Below, piece after piece: positions 9,990 through 33,730 of a stretch of 64,000 bases of DNA. Within the stretch, counting starts at the first letter, position 1. Every line of letters starts with the position of its first letter. The notes under the pieces are model-generated. The model saw only the letters and a list, made by a program, of their open reading frames with translations. It had not been told where the DNA came from and did no database searches. The translations under genes and the position numbers were made by a program. Source of the stretch: Rhodothermales bacterium (lineage in GTDB: Bacteria; Bacteroidota; Rhodothermia; Rhodothermales; JANQRZ01); NCBI GenBank assembly GCA_039944855.1, contig JBDUXZ010000024.1, positions 124,001 through 188,000 on the forward strand. Reading direction: 5' to 3'.

Positions 9990-10289
9990 ATGTCCGACCT
10001 CAACCCGACTCTCACCGACAAAGCGAAGTGGCTCGCGCTCGCCGTCGGTTCCGCCTTCATCGCTAGCTTCGCCGTGAAGAACCTCATCCGCGCCGGGTGG
10101 CGCACCGTCGCCGACGACGACCCGCCGCTGAACCCCGCCTCGCTCGACACCGATTGGAACGAGGCGATCACGTGGACGGTCATCACCGGCATCGCCGCCG
10201 GGCTCACGCGCCTCGTCGTCCGGCGCGGCGCCGCCGCCACGTGGCGGAACGTCACCGGCACGCACCCGCCGGGCCTCGAAACGCAGTAA
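9990..10289 (+). CDS. DUF4235 small membrane protein
   Basis: A 99-residue protein with two short hydrophobic segments: LALAVGSAFIASFAVKNLI near the N-terminus, and ITWTVITGIAAGLTRLVV before a basic stretch. This matches the DUF4235 family of small membrane proteins, whose function is unknown. It starts at ATG 9990 and ends 22 bases before the DAC-DsbA fusion gene, with which it may be co-transcribed. Confidence 0.75.
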   Translation: MSDLNPTLTDKAKWLALAVGSAFIASFAVKNLIRAGWRTVADDDPPLNPASLDTDWNEAITWTVITGIAAGLTRLVVRRGAAATWRNVTGTHPPGLETQ

Positions 10290-10311: not shown

Positions 10312-11490
10312 ATGCCCACCTCCAACCCCGACGCCCTCCGCGAAGTCTGCGCCGGCCGCAGCGGCGTCGACCCCGACACGCTCGAAGCCGTCGTCTCGCT
10401 CGCCGTCGAGATCGCGCGCGAGGGGCGGGAGGGGCGGAAGATCGGGACGCTCTTCGTCGTGGGTGACACCGACGCCGTGCTCGCGCAGAGCCGGCCGCTC
10501 GTGCTCGACCCGCTCTACGGCCACCCCGACGACGCCCGCCGCGTCGCCGACCCCGCCTTCCGCGAGACGGTCAAAGAGCTCGCCCAACTCGACGGCGGCT
10601 TCGTCGTCCGCAACGACGGCGTGGTCGTCTCCGCCGCGCGGTACATCGACGCCTCCTCCGACGGCGTCGACATCCCGCTCGGGCTCGGGAGCCGGCACAT
10701 GGCCGGGGCGTCGATCACGCTCCGCACCCAGTCCGTCGCCGTCGTCGCGTCGGAGAGTTCGGTCGTGCGGATGTTCGACCGGGGCGAGATCGTGGCCGAG
10801 ATTCTGCCCGAGCTGTGGATGCTCCGCCGCTACGCCGCCGACCTCGGCCTGCCGAGCCTCCTCGATGGCCGCGCCGAGCGCTCGCAGTCCGACGACGGCT
10901 CGGTGATCGTGAGCCGCCCGTCGAGCGCGCGCACCGGCCCCGCCGCCCGCGTTCCCGTGCAGGACCGCCGTACGCTCGCGCCGCCCGTCAGCGACCGCGA
11001 TCACCGCCTCGGGCCGGACGACGCGGCCGTGACCGTCCTCGTCTACGGCGATTTCGAGTGCCCGTACTGCGCCCGCGTCCACGGCCTGCTCGAGACGCTC
11101 CGCGACGAGCTAGGCGACGACCTCCGGCTCGCGTACCGGCACTACCCGCTCGTCCGCGTCCACCCGCACGCGCAGCGCGCCGCCGAGGCTTCGGAGGCCG
11201 CCGGGGCGCAGGGCCAGTTCTGGCCGATGCACGACGCCCTCACCGCCCACCACGACGCCCTCGGCGCCGACCGCATCGATGCGCTCGCCGCCGACCTCGG
11301 GCTCGACATGGAGCGGCTCCGCGAGCAACTCGCCACCCACGCCTTCGCCGACCGCGTCCGCGCCGACTACCGCAGCGGCGTGCAGAGCGGCGTCGACGCC
11401 ACGCCCGCGCTCTTCGTCAACGGGCAGCGCTACCCCGGCAAGCTCCGCCTCGACCCGCTGCGCGCGGCACTCGCCGCCGTCAGGGGTTGA
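10312..11490 (+). CDS. Fusion of diadenylate-cyclase (DisA_N) domain and DsbA-like thioredoxin domain
   Basis: A 392-residue two-domain protein. Residues 40-180 resemble the DAC domain that makes cyclic di-AMP: TLFVVGD, then LDGGFVVRNDGVVVSAARYI where DGA is expected, then GLGSRHMAGASI where RHR is expected, and SVAVVASES. A linker (about 185-230) leads to a DsbA/thioredoxin_4 domain with VLVYGDFECPYC (CPYC 250-253) and the cis-proline loop ATPALFVNG (363-371). There is no signal peptide, so both domains should be cytoplasmic. The DGA-to-DGG and RHR-to-RHM changes leave cyclase activity open. The joining of these domains is unusual; the DsbA part resembles those fused to NhaA-type antiporters elsewhere. 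Confidence 0.85.
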   Translation: MPTSNPDALREVCAGRSGVDPDTLEAVVSLAVEIAREGREGRKIGTLFVVGDTDAVLAQSRPLVLDPLYGHPDDARRVADPAFRETVKELAQLDGGFVVRNDGVVVSAARYIDASSDGVDIPLGLGSRHMAGASITLRTQSVAVVASESSVVRMFDRGEIVAEILPELWMLRRYAADLGLPSLLDGRAERSQSDDGSVIVSRPSSARTGPAARVPVQDRRTLAPPVSDRDHRLGPDDAAVTVLVYGDFECPYCARVHGLLETLRDELGDDLRLAYRHYPLVRVHPHAQRAAEASEAAGAQGQFWPMHDALTAHHDALGADRIDALAADLGLDMERLREQLATHAFADRVRADYRSGVQSGVDATPALFVNGQRYPGKLRLDPLRAALAAVRG

Positions 11491-11584: not shown

Positions 11585-14093
11585 ATGCGCCCGTTCCTCC
11601 CGCCACTGCTCCTCGTCGCGCTCTGTGGGGCCTCGCTGATCGCCTGCTCGTCGGAGGGCGGCACGCACGACCCGAAGGCGCTCCCGTACACGCTCGTACC
11701 TGTCCGCAACCTCGGCATGGGGGTGCAGGCAGCGGACCTCAACGGAGATGGGATCGATGAGGTGGTGATCTCCAAATTGCCTGGCGGGCGACCACCAGGC
11801 GTGATGGCCGTATGGCTCCAGACCTACGACGGGCGGACCATCGAGCAGGCCAACTTCGAAGGCCAGATTCTGCGTCTGCACTTCCTCGATCTCGATGGGG
11901 ACGGCACTCTCGAAACCCTCGTCCCGTACATCCGCAGCGACTCCCTCTTCCTCGGTATCGTCGACGTGCGGGGCCGGAAGCGCGGCGGGTTCTTCCTCGT
12001 GGCGGGAGAGCCGCGGGAAGAGCCCGAAGGGGCGCTCCCCTGGGACCCGAATATCGAAGCGTTCTACGCCGTCGACGCCGACGACGATGCGAGAGGCGAG
12101 CTCGTGACCGTCGTCCAAACCGGGTACGCTCGGCTCCCCCGAGGCGTGCTGGTTCACGATCTGCCAGACGGCGAGCCGCTCGGGCAGGTCATCATCGGAG
12201 GTCGGCCGGAGTCCTCCTTCCTGAGCGATGTCGGTGGAGATGCTGCGCCGGAGCTAGTGGTGAGCACGTGGTCGCCGAACAACGGAGCGGTGGCCGGAGG
12301 CTTCGACGACGCGCACTCCTACGTCATCGCCTTCGATCTGAATCCGGCGCTAGAGGTGCGGTGGTCGAAGGAGACGGGCGGGCTATGGAGCGGGACCTAC
12401 GTTGCCTCCGCCGACTTCGACGGGGACGGGCACCGCGAACTACTGATATGCACCACGACGGCGTCCTCGAAGCCGGAAGAGGCGCGCTTCGAAATCGTAG
12501 AGTCGGGCACGGGGCGCACCCTCCGGCACCGAAGCATCGCCGAGCCGCTGCGATGGGCACTGGCCGTCGACTTGGATCGGGATGCCCAACCGGAGATCGT
12601 AGCCGTTCGGTCGCCGGACGAGGTGTGGGTCTTTGATGGACGGCTCGAACGGGTTCAGCGCCGCCGGATCGCACGGGAACTGGGGACCCTCGGCGTCTGG
12701 CCGGACATGGACGGCGACGGGGTGGACGAGCTTACGGTGGGCTCAACGGAGGGGGAACTGTTGCTCGACCCGGCGCTTCGAGTGAAGGCGATCATGCCCG
12801 GCGAGGTTGTCGGCGTCATGCGACGAGGGATCGGCCGGTCGCCGTACCTCCTCGTCGGACACGGGGAGCAGGTCTGGGCGATGGAACTCGTCGAGAACCG
12901 GCTCTGGTGGGTCTACCGGTACGGGCCGCTCGCGCTGTGGGTGCTCGGGGTCGCCGGTGCGCTCGGGGCCGTGGCGGGCGGACGTTCCCTCTACCAGCGC
13001 ACTCGATTGCTGGAGCGGGTCTACCCCGTCGCCGTGGACGGGGCGGCGAACGGAGTGCTCGTGCTCGACGACGCCGGGCGCATCGTGCTGATGAACGCTG
13101 CCCTGTGCGAGTGGCTCGGGCTTGCCGAGGCGCGGCCGGTGAAGGGGGGGGCGGTCGGCGCGGTGCTCGGCGAGGCCCCCGCCCTTGCTGCGTTCCTCCG
13201 TCAAGCGCTCGCCGATGACCCACCCCGCCACCACGCCGAAGAGGTGGCGCTGGGGGCGAACGGGCAGCAGCACGTCCACTACGTCGCGGCCGATCCGGTC
13301 GCCCTCCAGAACGGGCGCGCCCCGCACTGGCTCGTCACCCTCGCGCCGGGCCGACGGGACGCTACCTACCTCGACGCTCGGCTGTGGGCGGCGATGGCCG
13401 AGGAGATCACCCACAAGCTCCGCAATGCGCTCGGAGCCATCTTGCTGGAGGCCGAGGAATTGCAAGTCGCCTACCGGCAGCAGGCCCCGGCGTCGTCTGG
13501 GACTCTCGACCCGTACACCGAGCGTATCGCCGAACGCGTCAACACACTCCGACGGGAGACGCTTCAACTCCTGAGCATCCACGACGTGGAGGCCCTTACC
13601 CTCACCCGGTCGGACCTCAGCAGCGTGGTGCGCGACGTGGAGGAGACCCTTGCGCGGGACCGCCCGCCCCGTGCCGAGCTTCGTTTCCGGCTGGAAGACG
13701 GGCTCCCGGCCGTCGCCGTAGATCGAGAGCGGATGCAGGCCGCGCTGGAAAACCTCGTCTCGAACGCCTTCCGCGCCGTCAGCGGCGGGGGCATCGTCAC
13801 GGTCTCCACCTACGCGGTACCGAATTTGCAGCGGGCACAGACAGCCTTCGAACCGGCCGACTACGCGGTGCTGGAGGTCCGGGACAACGGGACGGGGATC
13901 GCACCAGCGGACCTCCGCTCCATCTTCGAGCCGGGCTTCTCGACCGCCGAGTTCGGGACGGGCCTCGGGCTGGCGCTCGTACAGCGCATTGCCGCACACC
14001 ACGGCGGCTTCGTCAAGGTGGAGAGCGAAGCGGGCGTCGGCTCGCTCTTCAGCCTCTATCTCCCCGTCGCAGACGCAGGACCCGTCCAACGGA

Positions 14094-14101
<8 letters not shown>
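11585..14101 (+). CDS. Hybrid sensor histidine kinase with extracytoplasmic FG-GAP propeller
   Basis: An 838-residue kinase. Residues 1-21 look like a lipoprotein signal (lipobox LIAC, Cys21). Residues 40-440 hold about six calcium-loop repeats of the FG-GAP/VCBS type (DLNGDGIDEV, DLDGDGTLET, DFDGDGHREL, DMDGDGVDEL), suggesting a beta-propeller outside the cytoplasm. One membrane helix follows (about 447-465), then a PAS-like segment (about 480-580), the dimerisation box EEITHKLRNALGAI (His near 607), and a HATPase domain with ENLVSNAFRA, DNGTGIAP and GTGLGLALV. It overlaps the response-regulator start by 8 bases, so the two form a pair. The ligand is unknown. Confidence 0.88.
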
Positions 14102-32581: not shown

Positions 32582-32633
32582 GGCGCGGCGAACGCGGGGG
32601 CGGCGCGGGTCGAACCTTTGGACACGTCGACCG

Positions 32634-32649
32634 TTGGCACCTGCCTCGC
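32634..32649 (+). promoter_or_regulatory. Possible sigma-54 promoter before nrnA
   Basis: TTGGCAC (32634-32640), five bases, then TCGC (32646-32649): GG and GC are separated by the exact 10 bases that sigma-54 needs, with one mismatch to TTGC. Transcription would begin near 32661, just before ATG 32672. A chance match is possible in this GC-rich sequence. Confidence 0.3.
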
Positions 32650-32671
32650 CCCGTTTACCGCTCGAACCGCC

Positions 32672-33730
32672 ATGCTCCCCACGGTCCTCTCGCACCTCCT
32701 CGACGCCGAGCGCGTCGTCATCACCACCCACCTCCGGCCCGACGGCGACGCGCTCGGCTCGCAGATCGGCCTCGGTCTGTTCCTGCGGAAGCTGGGCAAA
32801 GACGTCACGCTCATCAACTCGGACGCGGCCCCGCGCAACCTCGAGTGGATGATGGACCTCGCCGAGGTCACGACGTTCACGGGCGCGCTCAAGCAGCTCA
32901 AGCGGATCGCCGAGGCCGACGCGCTCGTCGTCGTCGATACGGGCGTGGAGGAGCGGATCGGGAAGCTCGGGCCGAGTTGGCGCGACGCGCCGGGCGTGAA
33001 GCTGCTCATCGATCACCACCCGAATCCCGAGACGTGGTTCGACCACCAGCTCCTCAGGACCGAGGCCGCCGCGACGGGCGAGCTGATCTACGACCTCATC
33101 GCGGCGCACGACGCCGACCTCATCGACGGCGAGATCGCCACGGCGCTCTACGCCGCGATCATGACCGACACCGGCTCGTTCCGCTACGGCTCGACGACGG
33201 CCCGCGTCCACCAGATCACCGCCGACCTGCTGGAGCGCGGCGACATCGCCCCCGAACCCATCCACGTCGCCATCTTCGACACGCGGATGCCGAGCACGTT
33301 GCGGCTGCTCTCCCGCGCGCTCGACACGATCACGACGGTCTACGACGGGCAACTCGCCTACGTCGTCGTCTCGCTCGACGCGATGAACGGCGTCGGGGCG
33401 CGCTCGGACGAGGCGGAGGGGATCGTGAGCTACCCGCTCTCGATGGAGGGCGTCCGCGCCGCCGTCATCTTCCTCGAAACGCCGTCGGGAATCAAGTGCT
33501 CGTTCCGCTCCAAAGGTGCGCTCGCCATCAACGGGTGGGCGCGTGCATTCGGCGGCGGCGGCCACCGCAACGCGGCCGGGGCGTACATCCGCGAGCCGCT
33601 CCGCGAGGTCATCGACCGCGTCATAGCCGCCGCGCCGAAGCACCTCGATCTCGGCGAGGAGTACGAGGTCAGCGACGAGATCAAAGACGAAGACCTCGCG
33701 CTCCTCGCCTCGTTCCAGGGCAAGCTCTGA
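32672..33730 (+). CDS. nrnA: Oligoribonuclease/pAp phosphatase, DHH-DHHA1 family
   Basis: A 352-residue DHH phosphoesterase that degrades very short RNAs, and in many bacteria also pAp and pApA, the breakdown product of cyclic di-AMP. Metal-binding motifs occur in order: RPDGDALGS, VVVDTG, LIDHHPN (the DHH motif) and MTDTGSFRY. The DHHA1 domain carries the substrate-binding GGGGHRNAAG. ATG 32672 was chosen over an in-frame codon at 32618 because it directly precedes the conserved VLSHLLDAERVVITTH. The next gene starts 43 bases downstream. Confidence 0.93.
   Translation: MLPTVLSHLLDAERVVITTHLRPDGDALGSQIGLGLFLRKLGKDVTLINSDAAPRNLEWMMDLAEVTTFTGALKQLKRIAEADALVVVDTGVEERIGKLGPSWRDAPGVKLLIDHHPNPETWFDHQLLRTEAAATGELIYDLIAAHDADLIDGEIATALYAAIMTDTGSFRYGSTTARVHQITADLLERGDIAPEPIHVAIFDTRMPSTLRLLSRALDTITTVYDGQLAYVVVSLDAMNGVGARSDEAEGIVSYPLSMEGVRAAVIFLETPSGIKCSFRSKGALAINGWARAFGGGGHRNAAGAYIREPLREVIDRVIAAAPKHLDLGEEYEVSDEIKDEDLALLASFQGKL

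Follow-up and report, generated by a model that had tools for sequence, protein, structure and literature searches.

What controls the activity of diadenylate cyclases is a persistent question in the study of c-di-AMP. The window considered here, the whole 64,000-nucleotide stretch of Rhodothermales DNA that was analysed, holds a gene that raises this question directly, since its product joins a diadenylate-cyclase (DAC) domain to a DsbA-like thioredoxin (Trx) domain. Does the protein make c-di-AMP, and could the thiol chemistry of one half govern the output of the other? We tentatively propose that it is a c-di-AMP synthase of the DacZ class, located in the cytosol, and that thiol exchange of the tethered redox domain with Cys13 may gate its output, a reading to which we give somewhat less than an even chance. 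The features discussed below are listed in Table 1.

Table 1. Position of the fusion gene, its domains and motifs, and the gene upstream, in window coordinates.
Feature	Coordinates	Strand	Remarks
DUF4235 gene	9990..10289	+	22-bp gap upstream of fusion; absent beside orthologues
Fusion gene, short DacZ-type DAC + DsbA-like Thioredoxin_4, 392 aa	10312..11490	+	single intact ORF
Cys13 codon	10348..10350	+	near-invariant in short bacterial DacZ family
DAC domain PF02457, residues 35-159	10414..10788	+	Pfam, structural match to CdaS/CdaA
DGG motif, D94 at catalytic Asp position	10591..10599	+	DGA 19/25, DGG 6/25 aligned relatives
SRHM motif, residues 127-130	10690..10701	+	DacZ-class form of xRHR
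SES motif, residues 147-149	10750..10758	+	DacZ-class form of SEE
Linker, residues 179-226	10846..10989	+	low pLDDT at 187-220; least conserved among 3 orthologues
DsbA-like Thioredoxin_4 domain, residues 229-387	10996..11472	+	Pfam, structural match
CPYC redox motif, residues 250-253 (C250, C253)	11059..11070	+	kept in 3/3 orthologues
cis-Pro position P365 in Thr-Pro loop 364-365	11404..11406	+	kept in 3/3 orthologues

The fusion gene, its orthologues and its distribution

Both halves of the protein are recognised by Pfam, the N-terminal one as DAC (57.0 bits, cut-off 27) and the C-terminal one as Thioredoxin_4 (68.4 bits, cut-off 23.2) and DSBA (59.7 bits, cut-off 25.6). The C-terminal half combines a CxxC motif, a cis-Pro loop and a DsbA-like fold with a profile score above the cut-off. 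The first-pass annotation had described a DAC domain fused to a CPYC thioredoxin domain with a cis-Pro loop, and this description holds, with both domains over their cut-offs, CPYC at residues 250–253 and the Thr-Pro pair at 364–365. It had also named two observations that would count against a fusion: weak domain scores for the N-terminal half, which are not seen at 57.0 bits against a cut-off of 27, and a frameshift between two genes, which is absent, the orthologues in two related genomes (G001 and G002) being full-length. The N-terminus, MPTSNPDALREVCAGRSG, was read for a hydrophobic stretch, a signal peptide or a lipobox, and none is present, in agreement with the missing signal peptide of the earlier annotation. 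The signal peptide or lipobox that marks an exported DsbA is thus lacking, and the protein is predicted from its sequence to be cytosolic.

The annotation had suggested structure prediction as a check, and the AlphaFold model (mean pLDDT 85.4, pTM 0.58) gives two confident domains, a DAC fold and a BdbD/DsbA fold. The DAC half superimposes on B. cereus CdaS (2fb5; Z 15.9, rmsd 2.6, 138 residues aligned) and on the CdaA-AMP complex (8c4n; Z 15.3, rmsd 5.0, 140 aligned), and the C-terminal half on BdbD (3eu3; Z 23.1, rmsd 2.2, 173 aligned). The two domains are joined by a disordered linker, whose residues 187–220 have pLDDT values mostly below 50. No contact between Cys13 and CPYC appears in the model, because the linker is placed without confidence.

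Full-length orthologues occur in G001 (83% identity) and G002 (80%), with the ORF unbroken in both assemblies. These two genomes belong to another genus, and the fusion is present in all three genomes of the family that were examined. The G001 and G002 loci share their position beside divergent carotenoid genes, and the upstream synteny is preserved. Across the three orthologues, pN/pS is 0.08–0.31 in the DAC half, 0.21–0.33 in the Trx half and 0.28–0.57 in the linker; both halves are under purifying selection, and the linker evolves more freely. Since full-length orthologues share the locus and selection acts to preserve both halves, the fusion is a real gene. In a poorly resolved tree of short DacZ proteins, the three fusions cluster in a single clade (100/95).

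Genomes were surveyed with a profile (A2) built from the DAC domains of short DacZ proteins. It matches in 6 of 245 genomes of the class, giving the three fusions, two standalone proteins (frames of 220 and 222 aa) and one frame of 292 aa that has a DAC domain with an N-terminal extension and no Trx domain. With a stricter E-value limit, the 345 phylum genomes searched give matches from the family of the fusion only. A 297-genome sample of the phylum of a Desulfarculaceae genome yields short DacZ frames of 191–278 aa, and in the 294 planctomycete genomes sampled, DacZ frames mostly measure about 300–580 aa. Fifteen planctomycete DacZ proteins were read, and none carries a C-terminal thioredoxin domain; all stop shortly past the DAC domain. 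No DAC-Trx fusion beyond the three was found in the 245 class genomes, the 345 phylum genomes and the samples of the two other phyla. The architecture, for which the first-pass annotation had proposed a database search, thus occurs in at least three related genomes. A contig scan placed standalone short relatives, among the matches listed, in Desulfobacterota, Bdellovibrionota, Planctomycetota, KSB1, Dadabacteria and Acidobacteriota, about 50–69% identical to the DAC half. The literature searched contained no paper describing a DAC-thioredoxin fusion, consistent with the annotation, which knew of none. The fusion is a new domain combination that is conserved in one small family and unites a known enzyme class with a known redox module.

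Cysteines and possible thiol control

Each of the three orthologues contains exactly three cysteines, namely Cys13, which is the sole cysteine of the DAC half, and the CPYC pair. Cys13 is therefore the only thiol in the chain besides CPYC. Its column is Cys in 24 of 25 aligned short proteins, and the 25th has a Cys one residue further along; the column entropy is 0.24 bits, against 1.1–3.4 bits elsewhere in residues 1–23. The long DacZ proteins of haloarchaea and planctomycetes that were examined do not have Cys13, which argues that it is dispensable for DacZ catalysis in general. We regard it as a thiol peculiar to the short family, with a candidate role in regulation or as a ligand. Family members that lack a Trx domain keep it just as strictly, so it may act independently of the fused domain. 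The whole short bacterial family might consist of thiol-controlled c-di-AMP synthases, with the N-terminal cysteine as a redox switch or a metal/thiol ligand, and the fusion lineage, in which the redox partner has been fused on, would expose this regulation; we consider this wider idea rather doubtful.

In the proposed mechanism, the DAC half would pair with the DAC domain of another subunit and condense two ATP into c-di-AMP, a step that is likely from class membership. The DsbA-like domain may exchange disulfides through CPYC with Cys13 of the same or the partner subunit. Such exchange would favour or block a productive arrangement of the DAC domains, so that c-di-AMP output would track the cytosolic thiol state and feed ion and osmotic control. 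We infer the gating of c-di-AMP output by Cys13-CPYC exchange, its direction and its physiological role. The fusion could in this way tie the c-di-AMP signal to the internal redox state. A redox-tethered DAC with one other cysteine also permits a simple, direct test of thiol control (Cys13 versus CPYC), and the fusion draws attention to a little-studied DAC family, found in at least six phyla, in which one cysteine is nearly invariant.

Alternatively, the protein could be an active DacZ-type synthase whose Trx domain does not control the cyclase but works on other proteins, either as an oxidoreductase on a tether or in a chaperone-like way. The nearest relatives of the Trx half, among the matches listed, are cytosolic Thioredoxin_4 domains, mostly at 40–54% identity, and Pfam finds the module in various settings. 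It forms the C-terminal part of NhaA Na+/H+ antiporters (L056 from Jiangella, L108 in a Chlamydiae record), is joined to FNT formate/nitrite transporters (L062 from Haladaptatus, L007 from the order of the window's genome) and stands as a single domain in L046; many other matches have some 430–470 residues ahead of the domain, a length that would fit NhaA. Since NhaA and FNT fusions are seen, the module has repeatedly become joined to other proteins, with ion transporters frequent among them. In L007 (G040), the motif reads CPTS, the second active-site cysteine having been lost. A module that is found alone and also on NhaA or FNT may be a general add-on, and the long, low-confidence, fast-evolving linker is likewise consistent with an independent role. 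However, the fusion has been kept in three species with both CPYC and Cys13 retained, which suggests a functional link between the halves, and we consider an independent Trx domain unlikely, though the most serious of the alternatives. A theme shared with NhaA-Trx and FNT-Trx would connect the cytosolic thiol state to ion homeostasis.

Catalytic motifs of the DAC half

The DacZ model of NCBIfam (NF041371) aligns with residues 17–167 of the fusion at 137 bits, compared with 24 bits for the next-best DAC model; the alignment begins at model position 120, and the score lies below the 430 bits needed. About 34 residues precede the DAC domain, and the DacZ_P/PK_C-like N-terminal sensor domain of haloarchaeal DacZ is absent. 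The DAC half is nevertheless closest to DacZ and shows the motifs of that class, DG(A/G), G(S/A/T)RHM and SES. Asp94, Gly95, Arg128, His129 and Ser147 are invariant in all 25 aligned short proteins, and Glu148 is present in the fusion. RHM predominates among them (18 of 25), and standalone bacterial relatives have DG(A/G), RH(M/V/L/F/I) and mostly SES. Haladaptatus DacZ, which scores 499 bits against the NF041371 cut-off of 430, reads LDGA, GARHM and LSES. Five further haloarchaeal DacZ proteins, retrieved via the exact H. volcanii dacZ primer sequence (PMC6741144), read LDGA, G(A/T)RHM and LSESDG. One of these five, L215, matches two primers of that study at the published 113-bp spacing, and its catalytic Asp is residue 193, versus 194 in H. 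volcanii.

Biochemical reports help to interpret these residues. H. volcanii DacZ has been reported to produce c-di-AMP in the presence of Mn2+ (PMC6741144). In M. tuberculosis DacA, Ala is tolerated in place of the Gly of DGA, and the change of RHR to AAA abolishes activity (PMC3328451). The ATP contacts listed for CdaA are Leu, Asp71, Thr102, Arg103, His104, Ser122 and Glu124, and the third residue of RHR is not among them (PMC7288161). The equivalents of Thr102 and Glu124 in the fusion are Ser127 and Ser149, and the latter is also Ser in the haloarchaeal DacZ that were read. DGG, RHM and SES are typical of the family and class rather than degenerate. Because the motifs are class-typical and H. 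volcanii DacZ is active, synthesis is the default expectation, and from its sequence the fusion likely produces c-di-AMP. No enzyme assay of a short bacterial DacZ was found in the literature.

The first-pass annotation had called the motifs altered and suggested that the protein may bind nucleotides as a sensor. DGG and RHM are indeed there, but they are not atypical for the class, RHM and SES being shared by haloarchaeal DacZ. A DAC half that no longer synthesises c-di-AMP, and instead steers the Trx domain by binding ATP or c-di-AMP, would account for the departure of DGG, RHM and SES from the textbook DGA, RHR and SEE, and a canonical CdaA is already encoded in the genome. DacZ-class proteins, those of haloarchaea among them, nevertheless carry these residues as a rule (PMC6741144), and Asp94, Arg128, His129 and Ser147 are invariant with Glu148 in place. 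A sensor thus appears improbable, and a dead DAC domain was dropped as the leading idea.

It is slightly less probable still that the Trx fold serves chiefly as an oligomerisation scaffold that sets the encounters of DAC domains, its redox chemistry being incidental. DAC enzymes need paired domains, and the structural matches of the Trx half also include ScsC and BcfH, which are oligomeric DsbA-like proteins. Against this, all three orthologues retain CPYC and the cis-Pro in full, and AlphaFold predicts a low-confidence linker, with no helical oligomerisation stalk, ahead of the Trx domain. A joining of two genes by frameshift or misassembly was ruled out for practical purposes, given a single ORF in three assemblies at 80–83% identity with upstream synteny kept.

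Genomic context and comparison with known systems

The neighbourhood of the gene gives no conserved operon partner that would point to a pathway. The small DUF4235 gene upstream, which had been suggested to localise the fusion protein, was not found at the G001 and G002 loci (best tblastn E 0.21). Its absence from both orthologous positions rules it out as a conserved partner, and it is probably unrelated to the fusion system. Downstream, G001 and G002 have an apparent glycyl-tRNA synthetase gene, identified by eye, in place of the window's histidine kinase. The latter (11585–14101) is an FG-GAP sensor kinase with a lipoprotein-like start, FG-GAP repeats, PAS and a histidine-kinase ATPase domain, and it is not conserved beside the orthologous fusions. 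No Rfam element was found near the fusion gene at gathering scores.

The standalone short DacZ genes likewise have no neighbour common to the loci examined; RuvB, an ACR transporter, Memo, DUF1638, aconitase and AhpC/TSA are among those seen, and tblastn found no related Trx gene adjoining them. In a Dadabacteria locus (L040:2568–3968), a gene for a pyridine-nucleotide disulphide oxidoreductase with an apparent frameshift at its end lies directly upstream of a short DacZ gene. In one KSB1 genome, a DHH-DHHA1 phosphoesterase gene lies 18 bp upstream of a short DacZ gene (L041:3939–5594). Known c-di-AMP and pApA hydrolases belong to the DHH-DHHA1 family, and the two KSB1 genes likely form a synthase-hydrolase pair.

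The window's own genome encodes a separate canonical CdaA with DGA and RHR (G000:C33), many TrkA_C proteins and DHHA1 proteins; a c-di-AMP network therefore probably exists independently of the fusion. The window itself contains a DHH-DHHA1 gene (32618–33730, with an NrnA/GdpP-like domain pair) 21 kb from the fusion, whose product is a candidate c-di-AMP or pApA hydrolase. The fusion would add a redox-conditioned input to a network that already comprises CdaA, TrkA_C and DHH-DHHA1 proteins.

Other attached domains, DacZ_P and PTS EIIA_2, occur in DacZ-class DACs elsewhere, so the swapping of attached domains has precedent in the class. In the planctomycete protein L159 (G534), Pfam places PTS EIIA_2, DacZ_P and DAC in that order from the N- to the C-terminus; similar frames occur in L219–L222, these DacZ-class proteins being about 470–580 aa long. 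It is possible that an architecture of the L159 type couples sugar-phosphotransfer state to c-di-AMP synthesis.

Among known systems, DacZ/CdaZ (H. volcanii DacZ, NF041371; M. jannaschii CdaZ) share with the fusion a DAC domain with motifs in the DGA-RHM-SES style. The fusion lacks their DacZ_P/PK_C-like domain; its N-terminus is short and bears a Cys, and its C-terminal part is a DsbA-like domain. The short standalone bacterial DacZ-like DACs (about 190–220 aa) have both the motifs and the N-terminal Cys in common with it, but no thioredoxin domain. CdaA/DacA, DisA and CdaS share the DAC fold (2fb5 Z 15.9). Unlike CdaA/DacA, the fusion has no transmembrane helices by sequence and carries RHM rather than RHR; unlike DisA, it ends in a DsbA-like fold rather than a DNA-binding HhH domain. 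The Thioredoxin_4 domain is that of DsbA/BdbD-like proteins, whereas the classical DsbA and BdbD are exported and the fusion is joined to a cyclase and predicted to be cytosolic. The NhaA-Trx and FNT-Trx proteins have both the module and the habit of fusing it in common with the DAC-Trx fusion.
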